Shown: one piece after another, positions 2,006 to 33,460 of the stretch
Layout of the letters: every line of letters starts with the position of its first letter
How positions within the stretch are numbered: the stretch's first letter is position 1
IMG/VR virus record: IMGVR_UViG_3300020027_000015
Location: 1-47,140 of that record
Reading direction: 5' to 3' (one strand)
Source of the DNA: a virus
DNA length: 47,140 nucleotides
The notes under the pieces: model-generated
What the model was told of the DNA's origin: nothing
Seen by the model: the letters and a program-made list of their open reading frames with translations, nothing else
Database searches by the model: none
Position numbers and translations under genes: made by a program

Positions 2006-2415
2006 CCGAAGGGGCGATCCGCGTCCGTCATTGGCGGGAACAGAAGACCGCTCGAGGTGAATGCCACGGGAAGGGCTGCCGGCGCCCGGCCGTGGGTTAT
2101 CTCTGCGACCAATGTAAGCGTCACACCTCCAGGCAGGCCGCGGAGACGATGCGGGTGATCCGGCACACCCGCGACTTCCTGCGCATCATGGGCCTACTGG
2201 CCACTGGGCTCTGTGTGTCGTGCGAGCAACCGTATCGGGATGCGCGGGGGCGTCGGTGGCGCTGCCCATCCTGCCGGCGAGAAGTTTCCGTACAGACACC
2301 ACGATCGCATTCGATCATTAGCTTGGCCGCATGCGATCGCAGCCGTACCCGCTTCTTCGTGCCCAGTGGGCTCTTACCGCCCGACATCTCGCCGCCTCAT
2401 CGCGTCCGATTCTGA
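2002..2415 (+). CDS. Zinc-finger hypothetical protein
   Basis: A 137-residue protein from a GTG that overlaps the previous stop. It has two metal-binding patches: CHGKGC...CDQCKRH at about residues 21-41, and CVSC...CPSC at about residues 71-91, both CxxC type. The last third (after residue 95) overlaps the next gene by 85 bp and looks less constrained. No family was recognised; the double CxxC suggests a small DNA- or RNA-associated ribbon protein. Confidence 0.5.
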   Translation: MTEGAIRVRHWREQKTARGECHGKGCRRPAVGYLCDQCKRHTSRQAAETMRVIRHTRDFLRIMGLLATGLCVSCEQPYRDARGRRWRCPSCRREVSVQTPRSHSIISLAACDRSRTRFFVPSGLLPPDISPPHRVRF

Positions 2416-3368: not shown

Positions 3369-3656
3369 ATGGCGAATTCTGGGGCGTTCAAGAAGGGTGA
3401 CGGTCGCAAGCGCAAGCCCAAAGGCGCGGTCAATAAGGTCACGGGCGAACTGAAGGACATGATCCTCGCGGCGCTGTCTGGTGCGGGTGGCGTCGACTAC
3501 CTCATCGCGCGCGCCCAAGATACGCCCGGCCCGTTCCTCACCTTGGTTGGGAAGGTCTTACCACTGCAAGTCACTGGCGAAGGTGGCAAGGATCTGATTC
3601 CGCAGACCGTGACGCTCGTGATTACCAAGGTGCCTGGTGCTGACTGCAAGCCCTGA
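3369..3656 (+). CDS. terS: Putative terminase small subunit
   Basis: A 95-residue protein. The basic N-terminus FKKGDGRKRKPKGAVNK is the pattern seen at the start of small terminase-like proteins (DUF5681-like), followed by a helical region (VTGELKDMILAAL) and a short C-terminal part. It lies immediately upstream of, and overlaps by 20 bp, the large terminase. TerS normally recognises packaging DNA and loads TerL. The identification rests on position plus the N-terminal motif. Confidence 0.6.
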   Translation: MANSGAFKKGDGRKRKPKGAVNKVTGELKDMILAALSGAGGVDYLIARAQDTPGPFLTLVGKVLPLQVTGEGGKDLIPQTVTLVITKVPGADCKP

Positions 3657-5724: not shown

Positions 5725-7701
5725 ATGGCTCGCACGAGCCCCGAACAGCAAGCATGGGATGTGACACTCTCGGCTGAGAAGAAAGCCGCCTTCACTGAAT
5801 TCCTTTGCACCGAACTGACCAACGCGATTAGTCAGCGTTCTGTCCCGATCCCAGAGGTCCGCTACTGGTGGACGCTCTACGAGCAGGGCCGCACGCGCCA
5901 ACAGAACCCAAACGCGTGGCAGGATGCCGCGGACCTCACGTCCTACCTGGGGACGGAGAAGGTTGACGCCCTACGCGCGCGCATCTTGCGGACGATCATG
6001 GTCGATCCGATCTGGACGGTCGAAGGCTGGGGGCTGTCTGCGAAGAAGGCCCCGTTCGTTGAGGACTTCCACCAGTGGGCCGCCGAGTCTGAAGGGCTAC
6101 AGGCCTTCCTCGCGCGAGTGATCCATGCGTCCCTGATCGAGACACGCGGCGTGCTGGAGGTGTTCGAAGACACGACCGAACGCGTCACCCGCAAAGAGAT
6201 CATGGCGAAGCTGAAGGTGCCTACGGATGGCAGCCCCGGCTTTGTGCTGAATGCGGAAGGCATGGAGCCCGAGCTCGAGCAAGACGAATCCGGGAACTTC
6301 ATCGAAGTCGAAGACGACATGACCCCGGCGGCTAAGACGGTGATCGATGAAGTCACCCGCGTGCGCAAGGGCCCTGGCTATCGGGTCTTGAGCTACGAGC
6401 ATTTCCACGTCCTCCCCGCCCACGCACGCGAGAAGGCGGATATCTGGGGTTACGCCAAGTACTTCACCAGGCGCATCGACCAGTTAGAAGAGTCGATCAG
6501 GGCCGGCGTTTACGGCAAGGACACGCTGAGCGAGATCAATCGGTCGCCGGAAGTGAATTCCGCGCAGTCCCCCTCTGGTGAGCCGATTCCCGTGGTGGCT
6601 CAAGAAGGTCCGACCGCGGAGAAGGAACTCTACGAAGTCCAGATCCTCCACAACCTGGACGGGAAGGGCCTGCGCTGGTACGTCTGCACGGTGCATCTGC
6701 CGTCGCGCACGTTGCTCCGGTTGAAGCATGACGACGTGAACAAGGGCCGCTACATCCTGTTCGTGCCGTTCCCGCGCACGGATCGCTCCCATGAGGGGTA
6801 TTCCTTCCTCGGGCACAAGTTGATCACGACGGTCGAGGAGCACACGGCCTGGCGCAACATGCTCGCCGATCGGGCCGCAATGGTGATCAACGCGCCGATC
6901 AAGCGGCTCAGCAACGCGCTCTGGGATCCTGACTTGCAGCCGATGGGGCCGAAAGCGGTGATCGACGTGCGCGACATGAACGAGATCATGCCGATGGACG
7001 TGCCGGATCTCACGGGCCCGGCGATGGAGCGCGAGCGCGAGATTATCACCGCGGCGGAACGCGTGGCGGGTATCAACGATATTGCCGCGGGTATGACGCC
7101 GCAGACGAATCGCACGCTGGGGGAAACCAACCTCGTCGCCGAGCAGAGCTTTGTCCGTATGGATGAAGTGATCAAGAACCTGCTCGAGGCGATGGAGGAT
7201 CTTGGTCAGGTCCGTCAGGCGATCTGGCTGCGCGCACTCGAGGAGTCCCGCGGGATGGATGCGCCGGCTGCCCTGTTCGAAGGGTTGGACGAGCGCGGCG
7301 GTGATCCGTCGAAGGATCAGGAGTCGAAGGTCACGCCCGACATGCTGACCGGGACGTTCCGCTTCAAGCCGCGGGGCTCGACGGAGAACGCCGACATCAG
7401 CCGCCAGCGCGGCGACTACATCCAGTTCCTGCAGTCCCTGCCGATGCTGATGAAGATCTGGCCGGCGATGATGCAGCAGATCGGGATGAATCCGGAAGCA
7501 GCCAAGTCCGCGCTTGAGCAGGCCTTGCGGCTGTTCCGGATTCCTGACAAGCAGGCGTGGCTCAAGCAACCAGAGATGCCACCGCCGATGATGGGTATGC
7601 CTCCGGGGATGCCGGGCGCGCCGCCTGGATTACCACCAGGGCTCCCGCCACAGATTGCCGCGATGTTAACGGGTGGCGGCGGCCCACCGATGGGAGCCTA
7701 G
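5725..7701 (+). CDS. Portal (head-tail connector) protein
   Basis: A 658-residue protein in the canonical portal position and size for short-tailed phages. The N-terminal part is alpha/beta; the central region carries the portal-like long helix (MEREREIITAAERVAGINDI) followed by AAGMTPQTNRTLGETNLV, typical of podovirus-type portals. The last about 45 residues are Pro/Met/Gly-rich (PPPMMGMPPGMPG), a flexible tail. The dodecameric portal forms the DNA channel, docks terminase and later binds the adaptor encoded at 15701. Confidence 0.88.
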   Translation: MARTSPEQQAWDVTLSAEKKAAFTEFLCTELTNAISQRSVPIPEVRYWWTLYEQGRTRQQNPNAWQDAADLTSYLGTEKVDALRARILRTIMVDPIWTVEGWGLSAKKAPFVEDFHQWAAESEGLQAFLARVIHASLIETRGVLEVFEDTTERVTRKEIMAKLKVPTDGSPGFVLNAEGMEPELEQDESGNFIEVEDDMTPAAKTVIDEVTRVRKGPGYRVLSYEHFHVLPAHAREKADIWGYAKYFTRRIDQLEESIRAGVYGKDTLSEINRSPEVNSAQSPSGEPIPVVAQEGPTAEKELYEVQILHNLDGKGLRWYVCTVHLPSRTLLRLKHDDVNKGRYILFVPFPRTDRSHEGYSFLGHKLITTVEEHTAWRNMLADRAAMVINAPIKRLSNALWDPDLQPMGPKAVIDVRDMNEIMPMDVPDLTGPAMEREREIITAAERVAGINDIAAGMTPQTNRTLGETNLVAEQSFVRMDEVIKNLLEAMEDLGQVRQAIWLRALEESRGMDAPAALFEGLDERGGDPSKDQESKVTPDMLTGTFRFKPRGSTENADISRQRGDYIQFLQSLPMLMKIWPAMMQQIGMNPEAAKSALEQALRLFRIPDKQAWLKQPEMPPPMMGMPPGMPGAPPGLPPGLPPQIAAMLTGGGGPPMGA

Positions 7702-8016
7702 ATGTCAGCGATCGAGCAGAAGCAGGAATACGAAGACCTTGACACCCTCTTTCGATCGTCGGGGTGGTTACGGTTCAAAGCCTACGTGGCGCAGCAGTGG
7801 GGCACACCACACGACGGGGGCGGCGCCCGCTTTCAGGCAGCAGTGAACAGCGCGGCCGCGGAGCAGGCGGATAGCGATGCCACGGCCAAGCTCCGGCAGA
7901 TCGTCGTGGCGCAGAAGCAGATTCAAGGACTGCTGACCGAGTTCGAAGCGCGCCTACAGCATGTGCGTCCGCTGGCGGAGCGGGAGTTGGCTGTCTCTCG
8001 GCGTGGGTCACTGTGA
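7702..8016 (+). CDS. Small helical protein of the head operon
   Basis: A 104-residue, mostly helical protein (KLRQIVVAQKQIQGLLTEFE looks like a coiled coil). It starts with the first base after the portal stop and overlaps the GroES-like gene by four bases. The conserved block WLRFKAYVAQQWG near residue 22 is familiar from proteins adjacent to podovirus portals, but their role is unknown to me. A structural or assembly-chaperone role is plausible from position. Confidence 0.6.
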   Translation: MSAIEQKQEYEDLDTLFRSSGWLRFKAYVAQQWGTPHDGGGARFQAAVNSAAAEQADSDATAKLRQIVVAQKQIQGLLTEFEARLQHVRPLAERELAVSRRGSL

Positions 8017-8282
8017 TCCTACAGGTGATAGGCGATCGCGTGATCGTGAAGACCGAGGATCAGTCCCTGACTGAACGGGAGTCAGGGCTCGTCACCGTCG
8101 AGTATGACGCGCCCGAGGTGATCGGCACAGTGATCGCCTGCGCGGATGGCCTCGATGTGCGACTCGGCGATGTCGTGATCTTCCCGCCCAGCGCGGGGCA
8201 AGTCTTGGAATGGAATGCCAAACGCCATCTGGTGCTTTTTGCTGATGAAATTCTCGCGGTGTATGAAGGAGCGAACGTATGA
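8013..8282 (+). CDS. groES-like: GroES-like co-chaperonin (Cpn10 family)
   Basis: An 89-residue protein with the whole Cpn10 plan: N-terminal strand VIGDRVIVKTED, a mobile loop with the hydrophobic triplet GLV (residues 26-28; equivalent to GIV in GroES), then PEVIGTVIACADG, GDVVIFPPSAGQVLEW and the C-terminal EILAVYE. A GTG overlaps the previous stop. In T4-like phages, phage co-chaperonins replace GroES so that GroEL can fold the capsid protein. Its location between portal and scaffold supports a capsid-folding role with the host GroEL. Confidence 0.85.
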   Translation: MILQVIGDRVIVKTEDQSLTERESGLVTVEYDAPEVIGTVIACADGLDVRLGDVVIFPPSAGQVLEWNAKRHLVLFADEILAVYEGANV

Positions 8283-9196: not shown

Positions 9197-9676
9197 ATGG
9201 CAAAGAAAGCACTTCCGAAAGTCTCTGTGTTGGAGCGTCGTCTCAAGCATCCCTTCGGCGCGCCGTCTGTCCCGATCACGCTCAAGGACGGCAAGCTGTG
9301 GGCGATCCACATTGCGAATGATCGCGTGCGTACCGGCCGCGTCCACCAGATGGCGCAAATGGGCTGGACCTTTGTGCAGGCCGATGAAGTCGACGGCCGG
9401 CCGGAGGACTTCGGCTTCCGCGAGTTGGGCCATCGCCTGGTCCGCGGGGAGCACGGCGAAGAAGTCCTGATGAAGATGCCGCAGGAGGACTTCGATCAGA
9501 TCCAGAACGCGAAAGCGGACTTGAACATCAAGAACCTCGGGCAGAAGAAAACACGCGAAGCGGTGGCGCAGGCGACGGCCACGGAATACGGCGATGAGGC
9601 TGGGGAGACCGTCTTCAAGAACATCGAAGTGACGGACGGTCGCGAGCGTGTGGAGTTGGAAGACGCCGAGGCCTAA
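9197..9676 (+). CDS. Head-operon protein of unknown function
   Basis: A 159-residue protein starting three bases after the scaffold stop. The middle reads TLKDGKLWAIHIANDRVRTGRVHQMAQMGWTFV and resembles a small beta-domain; the C-terminus is charged and helical. I recognise the 'MGW.FV...D' style from uncharacterised head proteins of environmental podophages. It may be a capsid accessory protein. A stem-loop directly follows the stop. Confidence 0.6.
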   Translation: MAKKALPKVSVLERRLKHPFGAPSVPITLKDGKLWAIHIANDRVRTGRVHQMAQMGWTFVQADEVDGRPEDFGFRELGHRLVRGEHGEEVLMKMPQEDFDQIQNAKADLNIKNLGQKKTREAVAQATATEYGDEAGETVFKNIEVTDGRERVELEDAEA

Positions 9677-9943: not shown

Positions 9944-10498
9944 ATGGCAGACTGGACGATCGGCGCGGATTCCAATCCGCAGTTTGAACGATCCGGCGCC
10001 TCGACGCCCCTGATTCGCTATTTCGAGCAATCAACGGCTGCATCGACCGCTGCGATCAAATACGGCGATGTCGTGTCGAACGACACCGCGACTACCACGA
10101 AGTTCCGCATTGTGCGCGCGCCTGCGGGCGGCGGCAACGGCGGGAACATCCTCGCTACCACCAATGTCCTCGGTCTCGCCTCGGAAGCCTCCACGTCGGC
10201 GGGCTCCTCGGTGGTGTCGAAGCTCGGCGTCTTTGTCGCGGAACCGGATGCGGAGTATCGCGGCTTCCTGCTCGGGGCTAATAACGTTTCGGGCTCGTCC
10301 CTCATCGGCGCGTTGCGCGCGATGCGCTACGACTCCACGAATCACATCTACGGGATCGACTCTACCAACAGCACGGCGGCGCTCTTGGGCGTGCTGATTA
10401 CGGATATTCCGGATGGTACCGAGGGTGACACCAACGGTCCTGTGATCTTCCGGTTCTTGTCCACCTGGACGAGTCCTGCCGTGCGAGGTGCCTTCTAA
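9944..10498 (+). CDS. Putative capsid decoration/stabilisation protein
   Basis: A 184-residue Ser/Thr/Gly/Ala-rich protein, beta-rich in appearance, immediately upstream of and overlapping by one base (TAATG) the major capsid gene. The position and composition fit head-decoration proteins. ATG 9944 was chosen for its GAGGTC ribosome site six bases upstream; in-frame starts at 9899 (TTG) and 9923 (ATG) would extend it without conserved-looking sequence. Confidence 0.6.
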   Translation: MADWTIGADSNPQFERSGASTPLIRYFEQSTAASTAAIKYGDVVSNDTATTTKFRIVRAPAGGGNGGNILATTNVLGLASEASTSAGSSVVSKLGVFVAEPDAEYRGFLLGANNVSGSSLIGALRAMRYDSTNHIYGIDSTNSTAALLGVLITDIPDGTEGDTNGPVIFRFLSTWTSPAVRGAF

Positions 10499-11418
10499 TG
10501 GCTATCCAGACACGCGGCACATTCACTGAGCTGAACGATAACGTCGACAAAGCGGTCTTCACGCTACTGTTCGACGCCGGCAAAGAAATCCCCAACACCT
10601 GGCGGAAGCTGATCAACGTCAAGGACTCCACGCGCAAGTTTGAGCGCGTGATGTCCGTGACTGGCGTCGGTGACATCCCGGAGAAGGGCGAAGGCGCGCC
10701 GTACACCTCGCAGGTCATTCGACCGGGCTGGACGAAGGATTTCCTCCACACCGAATTCGGGGCCATGTTTGAGGTCACGAAGACGGCGCTGGAAGACGAC
10801 CAGTACGACCAGTTGGCGCAGAACGCCCGCTGGTTCATGTTCGCCTCCCGCTACGTCGAAGAGAAGCGCGCGGCGATCCTCTACAACAACGGCTTCACGA
10901 CCGAGCAATCGCCGGATGGCGTGTCGATCTTCAGCACTGGCCATCTCCTGAAGGCGGGCGGCACGGCGCGCAACACGTTCGCCACGCAGGCGGACTTGTC
11001 AGCCACGTCACTCGAGCAGGCGTTGATTGACCTGCAGACAGAGACGAAGCTGGAAGCGGGCCAGTTGTTCGATACCGCGGACTCCCTCACGTTGGTGGTC
11101 CCACCGGCGCTCGAGTTCCAGGCGCATCGCCTGCTCAACTCGACCTTGCGTCCCGGCGTGGCCGACAACGACGTCAACGCGCTCAAGGAGCGCAAGTGGA
11201 CGGTCGTTGTCAGCCGCTTCCTGACGGACCCGGATGCGTGGTTCATTCAGCCGTCGAGCAAGAAGATGCACGGCATGACCAGCTACACCCGCGTGGCGAT
11301 CCATGCGGAAGAAGCCATGACCGATCCGCGCACGCGCAACCGGCTCTATCCGGTGCGGTGGCGTCGGTCGTTCGGCTGCTCCTTCTGGCAGGGCGTGTTC
11401 GGCTCGCAGGGCATCTAG
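10498..11418 (+). CDS. Major capsid protein (Mu gpT-like HK97-fold candidate)
   Basis: A 306-residue protein. Features resembling Mu gpT-type major head proteins include VGDIPEKGEGAPY near residue 60, a long helix RYVEEKRAAILYNNGF, and the C-terminal RVAIHAEEAMTDPRTRNRLYPVRW. Length, position after scaffold and decoration genes, and a dedicated promoter plus a strong following terminator all fit the main shell protein. No N-terminal processing site was identified. It is the probable client of the GroES-like protein. Confidence 0.85.
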   Translation: MAIQTRGTFTELNDNVDKAVFTLLFDAGKEIPNTWRKLINVKDSTRKFERVMSVTGVGDIPEKGEGAPYTSQVIRPGWTKDFLHTEFGAMFEVTKTALEDDQYDQLAQNARWFMFASRYVEEKRAAILYNNGFTTEQSPDGVSIFSTGHLLKAGGTARNTFATQADLSATSLEQALIDLQTETKLEAGQLFDTADSLTLVVPPALEFQAHRLLNSTLRPGVADNDVNALKERKWTVVVSRFLTDPDAWFIQPSSKKMHGMTSYTRVAIHAEEAMTDPRTRNRLYPVRWRRSFGCSFWQGVFGSQGI

Positions 11419-16656: not shown

Positions 16657-17282
16657 TTACAGGTGGCGTGTCATTTCAGCCGGGGATGCAGGCGCAGCAG
16701 CCGGGCCAGCGCGGCTCCGGATCGCCCGCGTCCAATCCGGTCCAAGAGGCGATCAAGGTGTTGTCGCTGCGCCTGCCGAAAGTGGTCGGCGCGCGCGGGA
16801 TTGCCCCGACGCCGCTCCTCACCTCTGAGGGGTCAGGCGGGAATAGCCGTGTTGACAGCGTAGTCAATCAGGTACTCGCGCGGATGTTCGGCGATGATCC
16901 GGGCGCAGCGGCCGCGCCGTCGCCCAGTTTCGGATCGGAGCCGTCTCAAGCACCGTCGATGCCGAATGCCCCCAGTTTTGGTGGGGATGTGCAGAGTGGC
17001 TTCCGGCCGCAGCGGGAGCAGACGTCCGTGGATCGTGTGCCCGATGATCTGTGGCGGCGTATCCCGAACATCATCATCGGCGATCTGCCGCCTGCGCACT
17101 CTGGCGATTTAATGACCGGGGCGGACGGCCGACCGATGGGTGGTGGCGGTGGCGTGTTCGGCTCACTCCCTGGCACAGATGCGAATCAGCCGCCCGCGGC
17201 GGTGGCGCCGGCTCCCCAGTGGCCGCCGTATGGCTTGCCGAGTTCACCCGAGCCGGCCTTCGAGTCGAATTCGTATCTCTGA
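16653..17282 (+). CDS. Pro/Gly/Ser-rich virion-associated protein
   Basis: A 209-residue protein of low complexity. The one ordered block is VQEAIKVLSLRLPKVVGARGIAPTPLL (about residues 27-53), which I recognise as a conserved motif in environmental podophage proteins, followed by a helix (VDSVVNQVLARMFG). The rest is disordered. It sits between adaptor and nozzle, so it may be an ejection or connector component. The upstream in-frame GTG at 16620 is rejected because 16653 overlaps the previous stop neatly. Confidence 0.6.
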   Translation: MITGGVSFQPGMQAQQPGQRGSGSPASNPVQEAIKVLSLRLPKVVGARGIAPTPLLTSEGSGGNSRVDSVVNQVLARMFGDDPGAAAAPSPSFGSEPSQAPSMPNAPSFGGDVQSGFRPQREQTSVDRVPDDLWRRIPNIIIGDLPPAHSGDLMTGADGRPMGGGGGVFGSLPGTDANQPPAAVAPAPQWPPYGLPSSPEPAFESNSYL

Positions 17283-19180
17283 TGGCGAAGTCCGTCAAGG
17301 CGAACCGGCCGCGCGCGACGTCGGTCTATCAAACCATTCCGGTCACGGACTTGACCGGCGGATTAGACCTGCGTCGATCGCCTACGCTGTTGGGCCCGAC
17401 GCGCTCGCGCGTGTGCCGGAATTTCTCCTTGGCGGAACCCGGCGCGCTCCGCGTGCGTCCTGGCTGGGCGGCGTTCTCGACGGTGCTCTCCACGCGCGCG
17501 GCGCAAGGGGCCGGCCGCATCTATCTCGGCTCGACACAGGGCACGATCGTCGCGCAGCAGGGCAACCTCTACCTCTTACCGGATAACGGCATCTGGCCAA
17601 GTACGTCCGTGTACACGGGTTTGTCGACCGCGGCGCCGGTGTACTTTGTGTTCGATCGCGATCTCGTGGCCGCGCTCGATGGCGTGTCGACGCCGGTCAA
17701 GTCGACGAACCTGACGAACTGGACACGGCTGGGGATCGAACGCTCCTCGGTCGTGTCAACGTTGTCGCTCTCGTCGCAGGCCAGTGATCTCAGCACATCG
17801 GAATTCGGACTGGTCTTTACCTATAAGGACCGGGGCACCAGCTTTGAGTCCGACCCGATCGCCACGCCGAGCACGCTCCGTTTGACGGACACGGGCAACG
17901 CGATCGTGATGAACATCCCGAACTCCACGGATCCGCAAGTGGACGCGATCGTGGCGTACGCGATCAATAAGACCGCGGGAGAATCGGTTTACCGCAAGGC
18001 CAGTTCCGGCGCGCAGAGTGGAGGCGTCTCCAGCACGCTCGTGATCAACTCAAGCGCGTGGGGCGCGAATGACGAGGCGCCGAGCACGCACGGGACACCG
18101 CCGAAGATTGCCTTCGGGGTGAACTGGAAGAATCGCTGGTGGGCGCGCTCAGCGGAGTTCCCGACGCGGCTCTACTTCACGGAGATTTTTCAGCCCCAAG
18201 GCTGGCCGGCACTCTACTACATCGACTTGCCCTTCCAGAATGGCGAAGAGATCAATGCGCTCCAACCACTGGGCGATACGTTGCTCGTGCTCGGGGCCTC
18301 GCAGATCTTCCTCGTGATTGGTCAAACGTCGCTGGACTTCGAAGTGCGCCCGTCACTCGGCGCGCAGTCCGGAGCCGTGGGGCCGAAGGCCGTGTCCCTG
18401 ATCGAAGCGGGCGTGGCCCATGCTTCGGCGGAAGGCGTGTTCATCTTCGACGGAGCAAGCGATCGCCTGCTCACGCACGATCTGACGCCTGGGTGGAAGG
18501 ATATGGTGGGCAACTCGCCTTCCACGGCCGTCCAGCGCATTCCATTGGTCTACGACTGGCACCAGAAAGAATTACGGGTGGCGGTGCCGCGGCTCTACCC
18601 GACGATCAGTGCCGGCGAATGGATCTTGGATCTGAATCGCACGCGCGAACAGAACGAACCGGCCTGGGCGGAAACCGACCGCACAATCCTCCACTACATC
18701 TTCTGGGAGGGCGACGAACCTGTGAGCGGCAACCGCGGACGGCTACAGAGTCTGCCCTCCAGCGCGGTCAAGGTGTTTGACGAATCGGTCGGCACGACCG
18801 CAGATGGCCTGGACATGAGCGCGGAGTACGACGGGCCGACGTTCGCGGCAGGGATCAATCGCGCGCGCTACACCGACCTCCATATCGAGTACGAACCTCA
18901 TGGCGGGGACTTCACCGTGGAGACGCTGGTGGACGGCGTGAGCCAAGGCCAGATTGCGATCGCGATGGGCGCCGGGCTGGCGACGTACGGCGAAGCGGTC
19001 TACGGCATCGACAGTTACGGCGGGGCGGGACGGCGGAAAGCTTACACCCCGCTCCCAATTAGCAGTGAGGGCCGCAACGTGCAGCAAAAGTTTGTGTACG
19101 CGGGGCAGGAATCGGCCGCACTCTTTACGTACGCGATCGGCATGGTACCAGAGCCGAACCCGCGTCAAATCAGCGAGTAG
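17282..19180 (+). CDS. Putative tail nozzle/hub protein
   Basis: A 632-residue protein from ATG 17282 (ATGG overlapping the previous TGA). It is all-beta in pattern, beginning YQTIPVTDLTGGLDLRRSPTLLG, RNFSLAEPGALRVRPGW, and with blade-like repeats (AQGAGRIYLGSTQGTIVAQQGNLYLLPDNG; ASAEGVFIFDGASDRLLT). Large beta-propeller-like proteins directly after the adaptor are tail nozzles in T7-like and related podoviruses. The assignment is by size, fold pattern and position, not by a specific motif. Confidence 0.6.
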   Translation: MAKSVKANRPRATSVYQTIPVTDLTGGLDLRRSPTLLGPTRSRVCRNFSLAEPGALRVRPGWAAFSTVLSTRAAQGAGRIYLGSTQGTIVAQQGNLYLLPDNGIWPSTSVYTGLSTAAPVYFVFDRDLVAALDGVSTPVKSTNLTNWTRLGIERSSVVSTLSLSSQASDLSTSEFGLVFTYKDRGTSFESDPIATPSTLRLTDTGNAIVMNIPNSTDPQVDAIVAYAINKTAGESVYRKASSGAQSGGVSSTLVINSSAWGANDEAPSTHGTPPKIAFGVNWKNRWWARSAEFPTRLYFTEIFQPQGWPALYYIDLPFQNGEEINALQPLGDTLLVLGASQIFLVIGQTSLDFEVRPSLGAQSGAVGPKAVSLIEAGVAHASAEGVFIFDGASDRLLTHDLTPGWKDMVGNSPSTAVQRIPLVYDWHQKELRVAVPRLYPTISAGEWILDLNRTREQNEPAWAETDRTILHYIFWEGDEPVSGNRGRLQSLPSSAVKVFDESVGTTADGLDMSAEYDGPTFAAGINRARYTDLHIEYEPHGGDFTVETLVDGVSQGQIAIAMGAGLATYGEAVYGIDSYGGAGRRKAYTPLPISSEGRNVQQKFVYAGQESAALFTYAIGMVPEPNPRQISE

Positions 19181-19183
19181 ACG

Positions 19184-20254
19184 ATGGCAGCGAGCTACCC
19201 AACCAGCGCCAAGGCGTTCACGACCAAGAACAATGGTCCCGGCAACACCATTGACGCCTCGCACGTCAACGACCTGCAGGCGGAAGTCACGGCGGTTGAG
19301 CAGGACTTGATTGCGGGCCTGCCTGCGGTGCGTGGGGGTACCGGGAATACAACGGCGGGCACGCTCGGGCAAGTGCTCACCTCCACCGGCACGGCGTATA
19401 CGCCCCAAGACCCGGTGGCGGCACGGTTTGCATGTCAGGGGCGGCTCTCGTTAACCACGGGCGTGCCGATCACATCTGGTGACGTCACGGCGGCCACGAC
19501 GCTCTACTGGGCGCTCTATCAGGGCAATCAGATTGGGTTGTATACCGGAACCGCGTGGGTCGCGCCGACTGTTGCGGAGTTGTCGATTCCGGTCCCGGCC
19601 ACCACGAACCAGATGTACGACGTGTTCGTGGACTACAACGCCGGTACGCCGCAACTCTCGCTCACGGCGTGGACGAATGACACCACGCGCGCGACGGCGT
19701 TGATCTTACAGGACGGCATACTGGTCTTGTCGGGGAGCCTCGAGAAGCGCTATGTCGGCTCGTTTCGTACGACTGGCGTGTCTGGGCAAACCGAAGATAG
19801 CGCGCTCAAGCACTACGTCTGGAATTACTACCACCGCGCGCCTCGGAAACTGCGCGTCACCGATGCCACGAATTCATGGGTCTACAGCACGGCCACGATT
19901 CGGCAAGCTAACGCCGCGGCGGCGAATCAGGTGGAAGTGGTCGTCGGGGTCGCGGAGGTGCGCGTGGATCTCCTCGCAATCTCGGCCACGAGTTCCGCGG
20001 CGAGTGTGGGCGTGAAGGCGACCGGCATCGGCCAGAACAGTACGACGGCATTTGCCGCGGATCAGATCGGCGGGGCCTCAGGGGCCACGACGGTTATTTT
20101 GCAGCAGAGCGCGCGGCTGGTGACGATGCCGGCGATCGGGTTCTCGTTCTTCGCCTGGTTGGAGTCTGGGTCGGCTGGGACGGATACCTGGTATGGCGAC
20201 AACGGGGACGCCGCGCTGATGCAGTCCGGTTTGAGCGGCGTGATCGATGGCTAG
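19184..20254 (+). CDS. Tail fibre protein
   Basis: A 356-residue protein. The N-terminus has an attachment-helix region (NTIDASHVNDLQAEVTAVEQDLI) followed by the classic fibre linker VRGGTGNTTAGTLGQVLTSTGTAY, which occurs in many tail fibres. The C-terminal half is a beta-rich, probably receptor-binding domain. It lies after the nozzle and overlaps the next gene by eight bases. Confidence 0.75.
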   Translation: MAASYPTSAKAFTTKNNGPGNTIDASHVNDLQAEVTAVEQDLIAGLPAVRGGTGNTTAGTLGQVLTSTGTAYTPQDPVAARFACQGRLSLTTGVPITSGDVTAATTLYWALYQGNQIGLYTGTAWVAPTVAELSIPVPATTNQMYDVFVDYNAGTPQLSLTAWTNDTTRATALILQDGILVLSGSLEKRYVGSFRTTGVSGQTEDSALKHYVWNYYHRAPRKLRVTDATNSWVYSTATIRQANAAAANQVEVVVGVAEVRVDLLAISATSSAASVGVKATGIGQNSTTAFAADQIGGASGATTVILQQSARLVTMPAIGFSFFAWLESGSAGTDTWYGDNGDAALMQSGLSGVIDG

Positions 20255-20609
20255 CATCGGTGGCGTTGAAGCGTATCTCGGCTCTCTGGAACCGGCCGTC
20301 AAGCTGGCGATGCAGCAGATCTTCCGGTACGTGCTGGGGAACCTGCAGTTTGGCGCGGTGGAGCATCAGACGCGCGCGACGAACTTTCAGGCGTACTGGT
20401 TGACGGGCACGACGCCGACGAATGCGAACGAGGAGTTTTCGATTGCGCACGGCTTGAGCAGCGCGCCGAATTTTCTCTTTCCGGTGGCGGCGTTGAATCA
20501 GATCGGCTCGCAGACCGTGCCGCTCACCGTGACGCGCGCGGCGGATGCGAACCGGATCTATTTGCGATCGAGTAGCACGGGGGCGGCGATTGCCCTGTTG
20601 GTTGGGTGA
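20247..20609 (+). CDS. Small fibre-associated structural protein
   Basis: A 120-residue protein. An N-terminal helix (VKLAMQQIFRYVLGNLQFGAVEHQTRATNFQAYWL) is followed by a beta-domain of 'SLGRVPTGF'-like type (IAHGLSSAPNFLFPV...RSSSTGAAIALLVG), a fold commonly placed at the tip or base of fibres. It overlaps the fibre gene, so probably works with it. Confidence 0.6.
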   Translation: MASIGGVEAYLGSLEPAVKLAMQQIFRYVLGNLQFGAVEHQTRATNFQAYWLTGTTPTNANEEFSIAHGLSSAPNFLFPVAALNQIGSQTVPLTVTRAADANRIYLRSSSTGAAIALLVG

Positions 20610-20611
20610 GG

Positions 20612-21424
20612 ATGAGCGAACAGCCTGAGCGTATCGAACGGCGCATCTGCATCATGGGCACGGCCCCGACGTGGAAGGACATCGCGTGGGACGATCCGAC
20701 GCTCGAGGTGTGGGCGCTCAATGACGCGTATGTACTGAACCCGCGTCGGGTCGATCGCTGGTTTGATCTCCATCCGCTCGACAAGATGTATTTCGCCAGC
20801 AAGAGCAAGAAGGTCATGGCGCATCAAGTGCCCGCGGGGTTCTTCGTGCGACCGGAGGGGCATCTGCAGTGGCTCCGTTCGCAGACGATCCCAGTCTACG
20901 TGCAGGATGCCGCGGCGCTCGGCACGCGCAGTGCGGTGACGTTTCCGCGTGCGCAGGTGGAGCAGACCATCGGGCCGTTCTTCGCGAGTTCGCCCGCGTG
21001 GATGGTGGGACTGGCCCTGCTCGAGGGCGTGACCGAGCTCCACGTCTACGGGATTCATCTCGCGACGGAATGGGAGTACCTGAAGCAGAAGCCGAACCTG
21101 TTGTTTCTGCTGGGACTTGCGGCCGGGCGCGGCGTCAAGATCGTGCTCCCGAAGGGTTCGCCACTATTGGCGGAGACCCATCAGTACGCGTACGAAGAAG
21201 ACCCGGACGTTCCGAAAGTGGCCGTGCAGCGCAAGATGAGCGGACTGCAGCAGCAGCGGGATCTACTGGCGAAGCAATTACAGCAGCGGCCGTGGTATCG
21301 CCGGCCGGATTCGAATCTGGCATCGCGGTTGTCGTGGCTCAATGCCCAACTGCTGGATGCGCAACTGGAAGTGCAACACGTCATCGCGGGCCGTGCGCCT
21401 GCGGGGGAAAGGAGCGATGCCTGA
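20612..21424 (+). CDS. Rossmann-like conserved phage protein
   Basis: A 270-residue protein from ATG 20612 (GTGAGG just upstream). CIMGTAPTWKDIAWDDPTLE, then VWALNDAYVL and RWFDLHP, then ELHVYGIHLATEWEYLKQKP, suggest an alpha/beta nucleotide- or sugar-binding fold; the start resembles DUF115/sialyltransferase-like Rossmann domains, but I cannot assign an enzyme. A C-terminal coiled coil follows. Unusual as a non-structural-looking gene in the tail operon; it could act on virion glycans together with the 28-32 kb module. Confidence 0.5.
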   Translation: MSEQPERIERRICIMGTAPTWKDIAWDDPTLEVWALNDAYVLNPRRVDRWFDLHPLDKMYFASKSKKVMAHQVPAGFFVRPEGHLQWLRSQTIPVYVQDAAALGTRSAVTFPRAQVEQTIGPFFASSPAWMVGLALLEGVTELHVYGIHLATEWEYLKQKPNLLFLLGLAAGRGVKIVLPKGSPLLAETHQYAYEEDPDVPKVAVQRKMSGLQQQRDLLAKQLQQRPWYRRPDSNLASRLSWLNAQLLDAQLEVQHVIAGRAPAGERSDA

Positions 21425-26386: not shown

Positions 26387-26821
26387 ATGAACGAATCCGA
26401 TCGCTTGCGCCTACGTGGTCGCACGAAGGTCAAAGAAGCATTCCGCTCGTCGGTCTATCCGGACTCGCTCGGCTACTGGACGATCGGCTACGGCACGCTC
26501 GTCGATGAGCGCAAAGGCGGCGGACTCACGAAGGCGGAAGCGGAATACCTGCTGGCGAATCGGCTCCGACTCGCGGAGCAGGACTGCGAATCGCTCCCGG
26601 CATACCTCGACCTCTCGCCGCCGCGACAGGCGGTGTTGATTGAGATGCGCTTCATTCTCGGCGCGTCCGGCATCCGCGAATTCAAGCGCATGTTCGCGGC
26701 GCTCGTGAAGCAGGACTACGAACACGCGGCGAGTGAGATTTTGAATTCCAGAATGGCCACGCAGATCAAGGGCCGCGCCGTCGAGATGTTCGAGCAGATG
26801 AAAACGGGCCAATGGGCTTAA
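26387..26821 (+). CDS. Endolysin, T4-lysozyme type (GH24)
   Basis: A 144-residue muramidase. The catalytic triad of T4 lysozyme (E11-D20-T26) is matched in exact spacing by E17, D26 and T32, in KEAFRSSVYPDSLGYWTIGYG. The C-terminal lobe contains RQAVLIEMRFILG and the end RAVEMFEQMKTGQW, as in family members. No signal peptide or SAR segment is visible, so export should need a holin. It cuts the glycan strands of peptidoglycan at the end of infection. Confidence 0.9.
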   Translation: MNESDRLRLRGRTKVKEAFRSSVYPDSLGYWTIGYGTLVDERKGGGLTKAEAEYLLANRLRLAEQDCESLPAYLDLSPPRQAVLIEMRFILGASGIREFKRMFAALVKQDYEHAASEILNSRMATQIKGRAVEMFEQMKTGQWA

Positions 26822-28288: not shown

Positions 28289-29380
28289 ATGAACGATGAA
28301 GGAGTGCGGGCAACCTTTGCCGACCTCCCCAGATATTCTGATTGTGTCCTCGTGGATGGAGCGTTTGATCCGCTCCACGCCGGTCATCTCGCCTACCTCC
28401 AAGCCGCGCTCGACCTTGGCAAAGGCCCGCTCCTCTGCGCCGTGGCCAGTGACGATCAGATCCGAGAGAAGGGCAAAGTCCCCTTCCTGCCCGGAGAACA
28501 GCGCGTGGCCCTCGTCAATGCGCTGCATACCGTCACCTTCGCGTACCTGAAGGATCGCCCCACACACGAAGTGATCGAGCAGATGCGGCCGACCGCCTAC
28601 GTGAAGGGCGCGGACTGGATGGGGAAGATTCCACCCGAGCAGGTTGACGTCTGCGCGCGGTATGACATCCCGATCCTGATCGTGGAGACGCCGAAAGAAT
28701 CGAGCACGGCGCGGCTGAAGGCATGGGCATTGGCGGACGCGGATCAATCGCTCGAGCAGTTGGAAGCGTGGATCGCCAGTCACGCGGAAACGCCGTTTCA
28801 TGACTTCAATCGCGAGTACTTCCAGGGCAACTGGCGCGCCATTCCCTACACGCTGGACGATCGGCGTCGAGCGGAAGGGAAGCATCCCGAGTTGATCGGG
28901 GAGTGCTTCTCTGGGCTTGACGTGCTGGACGTGGGCTGCGGGCCCGGCTACCTTGTCGAACTCCTGAAGGAGCGCGGGATGCGCGTGGGCGGTATTGATC
29001 CATCGAAAGATGCGATCGCGCTCTCGAACGACAAGTGTCCTGTCTTGCACGGTGACGTCAGTGAGCTCCCAGACAAGATGTGCGACGTCGCGATCTGCCG
29101 CGAAGTGCTCGAGCATTTGCCGGTTGAGCAAGTGGCGAACATGGTCAGCGATCTCTTCCGGGTCGCTCGTCAATACGTCTACATCACCACCCGGTTTTCG
29201 CAGGGCTCGGTGTTCGGCGTCACGGACGAGCGTGACGTAGACCCCACGCATCAGACGCTGCTGTCGCAACCGTTTCTTCGCGCGATGTGTGTGCTGTGTG
29301 GCGGCCGACGCAATCTCGAGATCGAAACGACGCTGGATCACCAGCAGAAAGGCCGCGTGTTGGTCTATGAGGTTCACTAG
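28289..29380 (+). CDS. Fused cytidylyltransferase and SAM-dependent methyltransferase
   Basis: A 363-residue two-domain enzyme. Residues 18-150 are an HldE/TagD-type nucleotidyltransferase: FDPLHAGH (26-33, the HxGH signature), KGADW (106-110) and a STARLK end. Residues 209-363 are a class I methyltransferase: motif I VLDVGCGPG (212-220), acidic end of strand 2 in GGIDPSK, and REVLEHLP. I know these as separate proteins in surface-glycan loci; the fusion is unusual. It likely activates a sugar or polyol phosphate as a nucleotide and methylates a related substrate. It opens the sugar cassette. Confidence 0.8.
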   Translation: MNDEGVRATFADLPRYSDCVLVDGAFDPLHAGHLAYLQAALDLGKGPLLCAVASDDQIREKGKVPFLPGEQRVALVNALHTVTFAYLKDRPTHEVIEQMRPTAYVKGADWMGKIPPEQVDVCARYDIPILIVETPKESSTARLKAWALADADQSLEQLEAWIASHAETPFHDFNREYFQGNWRAIPYTLDDRRRAEGKHPELIGECFSGLDVLDVGCGPGYLVELLKERGMRVGGIDPSKDAIALSNDKCPVLHGDVSELPDKMCDVAICREVLEHLPVEQVANMVSDLFRVARQYVYITTRFSQGSVFGVTDERDVDPTHQTLLSQPFLRAMCVLCGGRRNLEIETTLDHQQKGRVLVYEVH

Positions 29381-30203
29381 CGTCGTCGGGTATCACATGA
29401 ACCCGCTGACCTGCGGGGTGGCGAAGTTCAACGCGGAACTCGCGAAACGGCTGGGCGTGCCGTTCGTCGGTATAGAAGGAACGCATGCCTTTTCGTCTCG
29501 CCCCTTGTTCTCACTGAAGGCATCCGAATTGGATGGCAATGCGGCGTGGAAGGTTCAGGCGCTCTCCTCGGCATTGGACGCGCGTGGGTACAGGTACGGG
29601 TTCTTTTGGCACGATGCTGGAATCCAAGGGCTGAATTCGCGCGCCGCGCACGTTTTCTACGCCGATCCCTCGCTCGGTTCTCCAGGCCTGTGGTGTCCAT
29701 CTCTGCTCACGCCATCGAAGCCGCGCACCGTGCGCCTGTTCTCCTTCGGGATGGCGCACAAGCTCCAGACGCAGTACTACACCAAGGTCCGCGCGTTATT
29801 GGAAGCGGCGGGTCTGAATTACCGCTTGCGCGTGAGCGTGGGCCTGCATGAAGGCACGAGCCTTGATGATGCTACGAAACATTTTGACGCCCTGAAAGAG
29901 ATCATGGGCGCGGACAAGGTGGCCATTCTCGGATGCCTCTCGGATGACGCGGTGGCTGAGGAGCTACAGAACGCAGATACCGTGCTGGCATTTTTCGAGA
30001 AGGGGCTGCGGGCCAACAATACGACCGTCCACGCGGCGTTAGCCTACGGCAAGGAAGTCATCACCAACCACGATCGTTTGACTGACGAGTCGATGGCGCG
30101 CGCCACGATCGACATCATCAACTGGCACGTCTGGCCCTCGACGGAGTTATGGACGTGGGGCCAGTTGCTCCATGAAATGGAGAGGCTATGCGGTCACTCG
30201 TAA
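29367..30203 (+). CDS. Glycosyltransferase-like protein (GT-B, GT4-like)
   Basis: A 278-residue protein from ATG 29367, overlapping the upstream gene by 14 bp. It starts VVGYHMNPLTCGVAKFNAELAKRLG, reminiscent of GT4 N-termini ('P..GGVA.F...L...L'). The C-terminal half has RLFSFGMAHKLQ, KVAILGCLSDDAVAEELQNADTVLAFFEKGLRANNTTVHAALAYGKEVIT, the donor-side pattern of GT-B enzymes where an acidic residue precedes the helix (here E/K-GLRANN). It probably transfers the sugar made by this cassette. Confidence 0.65.
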   Translation: MRFTSVVGYHMNPLTCGVAKFNAELAKRLGVPFVGIEGTHAFSSRPLFSLKASELDGNAAWKVQALSSALDARGYRYGFFWHDAGIQGLNSRAAHVFYADPSLGSPGLWCPSLLTPSKPRTVRLFSFGMAHKLQTQYYTKVRALLEAAGLNYRLRVSVGLHEGTSLDDATKHFDALKEIMGADKVAILGCLSDDAVAEELQNADTVLAFFEKGLRANNTTVHAALAYGKEVITNHDRLTDESMARATIDIINWHVWPSTELWTWGQLLHEMERLCGHS

Positions 30204-31144
30204 TTGGCCATCGCGAAATCTCCGACGAGTCGCCGTGTTACGTGATCGCGGAGATCGGCTCCAACCACGGGGGGGCTGTGACAACGGCCTGCGACATGAT
30301 CCGCATTGCCGCCGCGACTGGCGCGGATGCGGTGAAGTTCCAATGCCGCGACAACGATACCCTCTATAACGATCTGCTGTTGAATGCCGCGTACGACAAC
30401 GAGAACAGCTACGGCAAGACCTACGGCGAACACCGGAAGGCGTTAGAGCTCTCCGACCCCGCGTTGGCAACGTGCATGTTCACCGCGGAGCAGAGCCACG
30501 TCGCGTGCTTCGCCACGGCGTTCGATGAGCGCAGCGTGGAGCGCATCGTGAAGCTCGGTATGCCCGCGATTAAGATCGCCTCCGGTGGATTGACCGACCA
30601 TGCGTTGCTGCGCAATGTCGCGCAGGCGCGTGTCCCCGTCGTGCTCTCCACTGGGGGCGGTACGATCGAGGACGTCGATGACGCCGTGAACACGATCTTT
30701 GCCGTGCATGGGCAACTGGCGATTCTCCACTGCACGGCGGCCTATCCCGTCCGCGACTTCTCGGAATTGAATCTGGCCTGTATCCAGACGATGCGCGAGC
30801 GGTATCCGGAGTTTGTGATCGGCTGGTCTGGGCACGACTCCGGGATCGCAATGGCGGTGCAAGCCTACACACTGGGCGCGCGGATTATTGAGAAGCACTT
30901 CACGACCAACCGGGCGAACAAAGGGACGGATCACGCCTTCAGCCTGGAGCCGTCTGGGTTGTCTAAGATGTGTCGCGATCTCGGGCGTGCGCACGCGGCA
31001 ATGGGGGATGGCGTGAAGCGCTATGTGCCGTCTGAGATCGCGCCGATCTCGAAAATGCGGCGCCGCCAACAGGTAGACGGAACGTGGAAGATTACGGGAG
31101 CCACAGATGATCCGAAAGTCGATCGTACTTTTCCCGCCGTGTGA
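30188..31144 (+). CDS. neuB: N-acetylneuraminate (nonulosonate) synthase family protein
   Basis: A 318-residue TIM-barrel enzyme. Signatures: YVIAEIGSNHGG (18-29), DAVKFQ (47-52), KIASGG (129-134), HCTAAYP (181-187), GWSGHDSG (212-219), IEKHFT (234-239) and DHAFSLEP. His216 and His237 match the metal-binding His pair of meningococcal NeuB. The family condenses PEP with ManNAc or related 6-deoxy-hexoses to form nine-carbon acids. The C-terminal SAF (antifreeze-like) domain found in most NeuB proteins is missing. Strong ribosome site GGAGAGG; overlaps both neighbours. Confidence 0.88.
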   Translation: MRSLVIGHREISDESPCYVIAEIGSNHGGAVTTACDMIRIAAATGADAVKFQCRDNDTLYNDLLLNAAYDNENSYGKTYGEHRKALELSDPALATCMFTAEQSHVACFATAFDERSVERIVKLGMPAIKIASGGLTDHALLRNVAQARVPVVLSTGGGTIEDVDDAVNTIFAVHGQLAILHCTAAYPVRDFSELNLACIQTMRERYPEFVIGWSGHDSGIAMAVQAYTLGARIIEKHFTTNRANKGTDHAFSLEPSGLSKMCRDLGRAHAAMGDGVKRYVPSEIAPISKMRRRQQVDGTWKITGATDDPKVDRTFPAV

Positions 31145-31514
31145 TCTCGGTCCTCGCACGTGGGGCCGCGAGATCGTTATTGCGCAGACCCCCGCCTATC
31201 TCGGTAAGGTGCTATTGATGCACGCCGGGGAGGCGGGCGGCTTGCAGTATCACGTCGACAAGGTCGAGACGTTCTACCTGCATAGCGGGGAAGCCCTGGT
31301 CGACTACGACAATGGCGAGGGCAAGCTCACGCGCCTCGCGATGCGCGAAGGGATGTCCGTCCATGTGCCGGCGGGCGCGCCGCATCGGGTGACAGCCGTG
31401 CTCGATTGCGTGTTCTTCGAAGTTAGTACGCCGCACTTCGATGATCGCGTGCGGGTCGAAGCGGAATACGGAGAGCCGGAGACAGGTGGACTCCCAACCA
31501 CTCGGCCAGCATAG
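31107..31514 (+). CDS. Cupin-domain protein (sugar-isomerase/epimerase-like)
   Basis: A 135-residue single cupin. Motif 1 reads GLQYHVDKVETFYLHSGEA, motif 2 VHVPAGAPHRVTA; the His/Glu ligands for a metal are present. Small cupins of this shape often sit in NeuA/NeuB loci. The role in sugar supply or regulation is not established. It overlaps NeuB by 38 bp and NeuA by 29 bp. Confidence 0.75.
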   Translation: MIRKSIVLFPPCDLGPRTWGREIVIAQTPAYLGKVLLMHAGEAGGLQYHVDKVETFYLHSGEALVDYDNGEGKLTRLAMREGMSVHVPAGAPHRVTAVLDCVFFEVSTPHFDDRVRVEAEYGEPETGGLPTTRPA

Positions 31515-32202
31515 CCTCGTGGCGCTGATCCCGGCCCGTCAGGGCTCCAAGCGCTGCGTGGGGAAGAACACCAGGCGTCTCGCCGGGAAACCGCTCCTGG
31601 TCCACTCGATCAACGTCGCGAAGTCCTGCGGGCTGTTCCAGTCGATCATTGTCTCCACTGACGATGTGGAGACGTTCGCCTACGCCAAAGCAGCCGGCGC
31701 CGATGTTCACGCCCGTAAACCCGAACACGCGACGGACCAGGCATCGGACTACGCATGGGTGTCTGACGTCATGGAAGGCCGCCCTGAAGAGATCTTCTGC
31801 ATCCTGCGGCCCACGTCACCTTTCCGGACAGCGAGCACGATCAGACGCGCCTATGCCCGGTTAATCGGCACGGACGCCCATTCCGTGCGCGCGGTGGAGC
31901 GCGTCAGTCAGCATCCCGGCAAGATGTGGGTCGAAACCGGGAAGTACATCGCGCCGATGATCGACAATCGCCACCCGGACGGCACGCCGTGGCACTCAAG
32001 CCCCACGCAACTCCTGCCGCTGGTCTACGTGCAAAATGCGAGTCTGGAAATGGCGTGGTCGTGGGTGTTGCAGCAGTATCGAACGATCAGTGGCGAGCTC
32101 GTATCGCCGCTCCTCACGGATCCGGTGGAAGGCTTCGACATCAACACCGAAGAAGACTGGGAAAAAGCCGAGTTACTGGCACGAAAGATGGCAATCTGCT
32201 AA
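31486..32202 (+). CDS. neuA: Acylneuraminate cytidylyltransferase (CMP-nonulosonate synthetase)
   Basis: A 238-residue enzyme from GTG 31486 (GGAGACAG upstream). The P-loop-like signature ALIPARQGSKRCVGKN (residues 13-28; IPAR-x-GSK), LRPTSPFR and the C-terminal DPVEGFDINTEEDWEKAE identify the NeuA/KdsB-type CMP-sugar synthetase family. It would activate the NeuB product with CTP to a CMP-sugar for a transferase. It is the last plus-strand gene before attP. Confidence 0.88.
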   Translation: MDSQPLGQHSLVALIPARQGSKRCVGKNTRRLAGKPLLVHSINVAKSCGLFQSIIVSTDDVETFAYAKAAGADVHARKPEHATDQASDYAWVSDVMEGRPEEIFCILRPTSPFRTASTIRRAYARLIGTDAHSVRAVERVSQHPGKMWVETGKYIAPMIDNRHPDGTPWHSSPTQLLPLVYVQNASLEMAWSWVLQQYRTISGELVSPLLTDPVEGFDINTEEDWEKAELLARKMAIC

Positions 32203-32226
32203 TCTAGGCGCGTTTATTGACTTATT

Positions 32227-32276
32227 TTGGCCTCCGAAGCCAAAGGTTGCAGGTTCAAGTCCTGCTGGGCGCACCA
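32227..32276 (+). other. attP: attP core: 3' portion of tRNA-Arg(CCG)
   Basis: These 50 bases are the 3' half of a tRNA: anticodon stem TTGGC / GCCAA around loop CTCCGAA (anticodon CCG, Arg), a five-base variable loop, T stem GCAGG / CCTGC with TTCAAGT loop, 3' acceptor strand TGGGCGC, A, CCA. No 5' half precedes it. Temperate phages that integrate into tRNA genes carry such a copy to restore the gene. The integrase gene starts its 3' end 96 bp away. Confidence 0.88.
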
Positions 32277-32371: not shown

Positions 32372-33460
32372 TTAGTCTTTGACGGCGTTGACGGCGAGGT
32401 CGTAGAGCGCCTGGTCGACGTCGTACTCCATCGTCTGCCGGATGTCCGCGTGGATCGCTAGATAGTGGGCCGCCTCAATTCCGTGCTGGCGCACCGTGCG
32501 CGCGATGAACGCGTGCCGAATGTCATAGGGGTGGAGATCATCCGGCGCCGGCCACGGCTGCGGCGTCTCCCGCGCGTGCGCTTCCCAAATCGCTTTGGCC
32601 TTCTCCACAGCCAGTAGGAACGACGTGCGCATACTGGACGCGCTGAAGGGACCGAACGCATTGGCCGCAGCAAACGCGCGTAGGGCCGCGGCCGCGCGCC
32701 GGGTGATCGGCATCATGCGGCCCTTGACGCCTTTCCCCTTGCGTCTCGGGACGATGTAGACCTGCCGCGCGGCGAGATGGAGATCGGCTTTCGTGAGTCG
32801 CTGAATCACCACATGCGGCCAGCCCGTCTCGAGCATCACGCGCAGGCGCATCTTCGATAGCGACTGTTCCCCATCCTTGTACTGCTGCCCCTTTATGCGT
32901 TTCCCGCGGTTCGGCATCTGGAACAGGATCAACCGCGCCACGACATACGGGAAATCACGCGGCCGCTCGCGACGGGTCTTCGGCGGCCGTGGCACGGCGC
33001 GGACAGGATTGATGCCGCCGATCCCGAATTTCCACGTGAAGAAGTTAGCGAGCTCGCGGCGACGATGGCGACGGGTGCTGTTCGCCACTCCGGCCACGTC
33101 CCACGCGGACATCTGCGTGGCGATCTTCTCCGGCGTGATCTCCTCAATCGCCAGTTCTTTGAACACGGTGAGCCAGTGGTTGATCGCGATCGTGACATCG
33201 ACAAGGCGCCGGCCCTTGAACGTGTTGAGGAATTCGACCGTGGCGGGCGCAAACGTCTGCGTCTGCTTCGTGATCACGCCGTGGCGACGTTCCTTGATCC
33301 ATGTCTGGCGCGCGATGATGAGGTTGCCGAGATCGCTTTCTGGCGCGTAGCGGCGTTCCCGTTGCGTCCCGCCGACGTTGGTGACGACGCGGTAGCCGAT
33401 CTTGTCGCGATAGATGCCGGTGACGCGTGTGGGGCTGTCCCGTGTTTTCTTCTTCCGCAC
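32372..33460 (-). CDS. int: Tyrosine recombinase / phage integrase
   Basis: A 362-residue integrase beside attP. It has a core-binding helical domain (VTIAINHWLTVFKELAIEEITPEKI) and a catalytic domain with the beta-hairpin Lys in RRKGKGVKG, box II as PYDIRHAF and the nucleophile in ADIRQTMEYDVD (Tyr). The usual box I Arg (TG-x-R) is not apparent: the sequence reads ETGWPHVVIQRL. Box II His is Tyr. A GTG start follows the lipoprotein stop by nine bases, so it is in a minus-strand operon with the repressor. Confidence 0.88.
   Translation of the reverse strand: MRKKKTRDSPTRVTGIYRDKIGYRVVTNVGGTQRERRYAPESDLGNLIIARQTWIKERRHGVITKQTQTFAPATVEFLNTFKGRRLVDVTIAINHWLTVFKELAIEEITPEKIATQMSAWDVAGVANSTRRHRRRELANFFTWKFGIGGINPVRAVPRPPKTRRERPRDFPYVVARLILFQMPNRGKRIKGQQYKDGEQSLSKMRLRVMLETGWPHVVIQRLTKADLHLAARQVYIVPRRKGKGVKGRMMPITRRAAAALRAFAAANAFGPFSASSMRTSFLLAVEKAKAIWEAHARETPQPWPAPDDLHPYDIRHAFIARTVRQHGIEAAHYLAIHADIRQTMEYDVDQALYDLAVNAVKD

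Follow-up and report, generated by a model that had tools for sequence, protein, structure and literature searches.

We identified a candidate sugar-acid module in a podophage-like genome, consisting of five clustered genes and a sixth gene elsewhere on the same strand, in which the NeuB-family synthase lacks its C-terminal SAF domain. The DNA analyzed here (the window) spans one entire IMG/VR record (47,140 bases). Gene content, predicted folds, an ancestry shared with a bacterial locus, conservation and selection are shown by the analysis. It may, with a likelihood that we put only a little short of even, be a phage glycan-modification module that makes a CMP-sugar acid and transfers it to a host surface-glycan intermediate, with loss of the receptor. 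Phage glycan-modification modules are known; this gene set and the trimmed NeuB look new.

The gene set of the window is podophage-like, with genes for terminase (3637–5202), portal (5725–7701), major capsid protein (MCP, 10498–11418) and internal virion protein (17051–19180). A GroES-like co-chaperonin gene (8013–8282; phrog_3188, 3.8e-10) lies between the portal and capsid genes, and is also present in some relatives. Five plus-strand genes, overlapping or nearly so, occupy positions 28289–32202 as had been claimed. They encode a cytidylyltransferase-methyltransferase fusion (CT-MT, 28289–29380), a GT-B-fold protein that is a probable glycosyltransferase (GT, 29367–30203, with its ATG at 29367), a NeuB-family PEP-condensing sugar-acid synthase of 318 amino acids (30188–31144), a small cupin protein (31107–31514) and a NeuA/PseF-like CMP-sugar-acid cytidylyltransferase (31441–32202). 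The original prediction placed this block between the lysis genes and attP, which is correct because a lysozyme gene (26387–26821) lies upstream, and a tRNA-like sequence (32210–32273, plus strand) and a minus-strand tyrosine integrase gene (32372–33460; phrog_1, 2.8e-12 in one search and 2.5e-14 in another) lie downstream. The last gene of the block stops 8 bases short of the tRNA-like sequence, which matched Rfam RF00005 (39.6 bits) and received no tRNA call from ARAGORN. We read it as tRNA-Arg with CCG in the anticodon loop, and as a probable att core. The five genes are not the complete module that had been supposed: a sixth plus-strand gene (2331–3365), encoding another GT-B-fold glycosyltransferase candidate, precedes the terminase gene, about 26 kb on the linear map from the other five, which follow the lysis genes. 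Moreover, no relatives of the short-chain dehydrogenase (SDR), aldehyde dehydrogenase and transketolase of bacterial loci were detected in the window at E 1. No NeuC-type epimerase was found, in agreement with the prediction.

The families proposed for NeuB, NeuA, the cupin and CT-MT were confirmed by Pfam matches far above chance. CT-MT carries CTP_transf_like (PF01467, 7.8e-12) and Methyltransf_11 (PF08241, 1.7e-13) domains in one protein and matched TIGR02199 rfaE_dom_II (5.5e-17) under the curated cut-off; it is an HldE domain II/cytidylyltransferase-like nucleotidyltransferase with an HxGH motif, joined to a class I SAM methyltransferase, and is split into two separate genes in some relatives (L005, L271). 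NeuA matched CTP_transf_3 (PF02348, 2.5e-23) and TIGR03584 PseF (2.9e-31), the latter at 108.8 against a curated cut-off of 205.7, which was not reached. Its motifs IPARxGSKR (IPARQGSKR in the window) and DIN are common to bacterial relatives. The NeuA proteins of two phage cassettes (L007:11401–12174 and L008:11297–12019) are only 55% identical, with cupins 98% and sixth genes 100% identical, a mismatch that looks like a NeuA allele swap by recombination. The cupin (Cupin_2, PF07883, 1e-9; phrog_7851, 8.8e-20) was detected by tblastn in 11 of 13 cassette-bearing relatives and occupies the place of the SDR and aldehyde dehydrogenase of bacterial loci; a sugar isomerase/epimerase-like or an accessory function are candidate roles.

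NeuB matched PF03102 strongly (1.4e-68; 231.4 bits against a cut-off of 22.1), and its closest solved relatives are SpsE 1vli and 6ncs. The NeuB TIM-barrel, the metal His and the PEP-binding Lys and Ser residues are common to it and the SpsE/NeuB synthases (1vli, 1xuu, 6ncs). It missed the NCBIfam cut-offs of the N-acetylneuraminate synthase/pseudaminic acid synthase equivalogs TIGR03569 (231.5 vs 399.65) and TIGR03586 (188.1 vs 340.25). Its conserved residues align with SiaC and SpsE, and H216, H237, K50, K129, S132, S154 and S214 (window numbering) were the same in all 23 phage and 80 bacterial NeuBs. Going by N. meningitidis NeuB, we take the two His residues to bind metal and the other five residues to bind PEP. 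A disrupted NeuB active site, which would have spoken against the prediction, was not observed, the metal- and PEP-binding residues being intact.

The C-terminal SAF (antifreeze) domain completes the active site of the partner subunit and is thought to be needed. Window NeuB had no Pfam match to SAF, and a profile of bacterial C-termini detected none in the six frames of the window at E 1. Unlike SpsE and SiaC, it therefore has no SAF domain, and its residue 134 is not acidic; the same position in N. meningitidis NeuB is a Glu of the aldose site. SAF was absent from 19 of the 23 phage NeuBs; in these 19, residue 134 is always G, A or S and residue 137 is D. The remaining four (L218, L220, L242 and L279) keep SAF, D134 and N137, and bacterial relatives have D or E at 134 and sufficient length for SAF (shown by Pfam for L062). 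The 19 SAF-less sequences form one branch (support 97), suggesting that domain loss and active-site change occurred together, once. The phage NeuBs group together as one clade with support 99, whose placement among bacterial NeuBs the tree did not resolve. Because the module genes remain under purifying selection (dN/dS 0.10–0.16 for NeuB and 0.02–0.40 over all module genes), SAF-less NeuB is probably active, with an aldose site that is altered or host-assisted. The cupin was considered as a substitute for SAF and ruled out, since SAF-bearing phage copies also have a cupin.

No sequence family was matched by the GT, and its predicted GT-B-like character was borne out by an AlphaFold model (mean pLDDT 90.7) with Foldseek matches to GT4 BshA (3.5e-7), SenB and HMW1C. 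Its homologue lies immediately 5′ of NeuB in acidobacterial loci. The sixth-gene protein, also modeled well (pLDDT 91.5; Foldseek E 1.7e-6), matched heptosyltransferases WaaF/WaaC, TibC and UDP-GlcNAc 2-epimerases in fold and resembles viral proteins named GT9. Assignment of 2331–3365 as a NeuC-type UDP-GlcNAc 2-epimerase was rejected: the fold is alike, but there was no Pfam match at 0.1. Whole-length TM-scores of both proteins were only 0.3–0.5 and allow no finer call than GT-B glycosyltransferase candidates. Homologues of the sixth gene directly follow NeuA in relatives and occur in several copies at loci such as L083; the phage gene is single-domain, whereas its homologue in Vicinamibacterales locus L062 is fused to a GT2 domain.

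A DNA-level search of 50,697 phage records gave no match, and a protein-level phage search detected only distant NeuBs (≤36%). Scanning viral contigs with NeuB yielded 12 contigs at 52–76% identity, most of which keep the order CT-MT, GT, NeuB, cupin, NeuA; the set was widened by scans with the sixth gene and with the capsid gene. Among near-complete records of the capsid family, NeuB and the sixth gene occur together in 16 (including the window) and are both missing from 8, and none has NeuB without the sixth gene. The cassette, regarded in the original prediction as unusual, is common within this phage group, recurring in 15 other near-complete records. Assembly chimerism, a concern raised with the prediction, is excluded because the block recurs across many independent phage records, within phage operons. 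Record G228 is no real exception with a sixth gene lacking NeuB, as its CT-MT-GT continues into foreign sequence at the contig end; there the cassette is broken (L314:1–3250) by a TypA/BipA gene of bacterial appearance, probably through assembly chimerism. Since the 8 cassette-free records fall into one clade of the capsid tree, these counts are not independent events: one or two phylogenetic events underlie the co-occurrence of cassette and sixth gene, and the Fisher test (p 8e-6) is descriptive only. The best evidence for the putative membership of the sixth gene in the module is that the pair persists while far apart (window, G002, G006, G009 and G013).

The contiguous block and sixth gene lie between g9197 (the homologue of window 9197–9676) and the MCP gene in G007, G008, G015, G016, G023, G025 and G248, and partial records G003, G020 and G034 have the same head-operon arrangement; in G006, G009 and G029, sugar genes are opposite in strand to head genes. 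HNH homing-type endonuclease genes (PF13392; L003:3840–4361 and L002:1262–1843) sit inside the cassette or directly before it in the two closest relatives and are a possible means of its mobility. Two further window genes, 19184–20254 (in 12/13 cassette-bearing vs 1/6 cassette-free relatives) and 20606–21424 (13/13 vs 0/6), follow a pattern that may be plain kinship, the negatives being one clade. With regard to the host, the att tRNA had no match at ≤1 mismatch in 193 Vicinamibacteria genomes, the capsid gene had one close match there, on a 3-kb contig, and MCP matches in 396 Acidobacteriota genomes were distant only.

With the phage NeuB alignment as query, a scan of genome contigs identified 80 bacterial loci (L040–L119), and most of those with enough flank have the order NeuB-SDR-aldehyde dehydrogenase-NeuA-transketolase (e.g., L062:4782–11344). 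This five-gene unit, its order conserved over about ten phyla (Thermodesulfobacteriota, Pseudomonadota, Chloroflexota, Actinomycetota, Acidobacteriota, Verrucomicrobiota, Bacteroidota, Gemmatimonadota and others), may represent a sugar-acid pathway not yet described; no description of a NeuB-aldehyde dehydrogenase-NeuA-transketolase unit was found in the open-access literature. Homologues of CT, MT, GT and the sixth gene are added only in Acidobacteriota loci, where the order is 2331-like gene, CT, MT, GT, NeuB, SDR, aldehyde dehydrogenase, NeuA, transketolase and further glycosyltransferases. The GT gene was present in 7/7 Acidobacteriota and 0/37 others of the 44 genomes with NeuB. In loci L047, L062, L075, L080 and L092, the homologues of CT-MT, GT, NeuB, NeuA and 2331–3365 have the same order and strand as in the phages. 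Acidobacteriota NeuB has SAF and D/E134, whereas most phage NeuBs lack both, and the phages have no aldehyde dehydrogenase and nearly all lack SDR and transketolase, with a cupin in their stead. One phage cassette (L223/G029, MCP 68% to the window) still contains SDR and transketolase and, by its gene content, is an apparent intermediate between bacterial locus and reduced cassette. Because Acidobacteriota chromosomes hold the same genes within larger polysaccharide loci, the cassette appears to be reduced from a bacterial sugar-acid pathway and is best read as a cut-down relative of an Acidobacteriota-type surface-polysaccharide locus.

These assignments support a NeuB/NeuA-type nonulosonate module with a transferase, as predicted; the substrate, product, acceptor and benefit described next are inferred. 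NeuB would condense PEP with a host-made aldose, which need not be the hexosamine originally proposed, and NeuA would activate the resulting sugar acid as a CMP-sugar. CT-MT may supply or methylate a second activated unit, and the two GT-B proteins (29367–30203 and 2331–3365) would transfer the sugars in the cytoplasm, most likely to a host surface-glycan intermediate. An infected or lysogenic cell would then display an altered glycan that no longer serves as receptor (superinfection exclusion). The host-surface glycan is slightly favoured over the virion as acceptor: both bacterial transferases are kept alongside the sugar genes, which suggests a bacterial kind of acceptor. Counting against it, neither a flippase nor a membrane-bound GtrA/GtrB-type partner turned up.

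Glycosylation of the virion is possible, if somewhat doubtful: the module would be expressed late, and its GT-B proteins would attach the CMP-sugar, in the cytoplasm, to proteins of the capsid or tail. The folds resemble the cytoplasmic protein glycosyltransferases HMW1C and TibC, but GT-B likeness does not separate acceptors, and the bacterial relatives sit in polysaccharide loci. Block and sixth gene are in the head-gene operon of most relatives, so the position next to attP, proposed as a trait of the cassette, is a local feature of the window; in the window, the sixth gene stands ahead of the terminase gene, and the five genes that come after the lysis genes, on the same strand, read with the late genes. 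This suggests late expression, which fits virion glycosylation, as does the scarcity of the phrog_1-type integrase, detected in just 6 of the 16 records with the cassette and missing from the other 10. On the other side, sugar genes run opposite to head genes in G006, G009 and G029, and a Cro/C1-type HTH gene (L012/G009) or an integrase gene (L009/G006) upstream on the same strand makes lysogen expression possible there. A promoter/terminator scan gave sites no more numerous than in shuffles. In the window, the position beside att fits a candidate lysogenic (sero)conversion module.

The altered synthase raises a distinctly unlikely alternative, that SAF-less NeuB, as a new PEP-condensing enzyme, uses a different acceptor and yields a non-nonulosonate sugar acid finished by the cupin. 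In 19/19 SAF-less copies D134 is replaced by G/A/S and N137 by D, which argues for it, as do the retention of both residues in the four SAF-bearing phage copies, the D/E at 134 in bacteria, and a cupin standing where bacteria have SDR and aldehyde dehydrogenase. However, a single branch means a single event, the metal- and PEP-binding residues are unaltered, NeuA is still of the CMP-sugar-acid type, and the cupin beside SAF-bearing copies is no SAF replacement. A little less improbable is that this podophage lineage uses SAF-less NeuB, with its changed aldose site, and the cupin to make a sugar acid absent from the host, coating virions (or the infected cell) by means of the two GT-B transferases. 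That the block is bacterial passenger DNA, either an assembly chimera or functionless decaying cargo, is very improbable: the genes are bacterial in origin, NeuB has lost a domain and relative G228 has a foreign TypA-bearing contig end, but the same block occurs across samples, in 16 near-complete phage records, phage NeuBs form one clade, and the genes are under purifying selection. Modification of a host glycan remains the preferred reading.

Known seroconverting phages of the P22/Sf6 type transfer glucose or acetyl groups, usually via membrane proteins, and we know of no such podophage that makes its own CMP-sugar acid. Similar to the window, these podophages (gtr, oac; Kapi1) are temperate and have the genes beside att, and Kapi1, whose integration site is a tRNA-Arg gene, modifies O-antigen (PMC8787464). 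Prophage EpaA/EpaB alter pseudaminic acid of the Acinetobacter capsule (PMC12053666), and epaA-epaB of Acinetobacter baumannii are, as proposed here, phage genes that alter a host-surface nonulosonate (PMC12053666). Known phage-made nonulosonate changes act on the host capsule (PMC12053666; PMC6586298), which speaks for a host glycan as acceptor here. However, epaA-epaB turn a sugar already present in the host, Pse, into 8ePse without NeuB, NeuA or a transferase (PMC12053666), whereas the window has all three, the transferase as a candidate. Phage NeuB-NeuA cassettes were not found described in the open-access literature.

If the preferred reading is true, small environmental phages go beyond tweaking a host glycan: they produce a CMP-activated sugar acid of their own and attach it, and the synthase they use has lost a domain that is considered necessary. 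The findings also point to a widespread, apparently undescribed NeuB-SDR-aldehyde dehydrogenase-NeuA-transketolase sugar-acid pathway in many bacterial phyla. The series from bacterial locus to phage cassette with SDR and transketolase, then to SAF-bearing and finally SAF-less phage NeuB, would provide a testable path of enzyme reduction.
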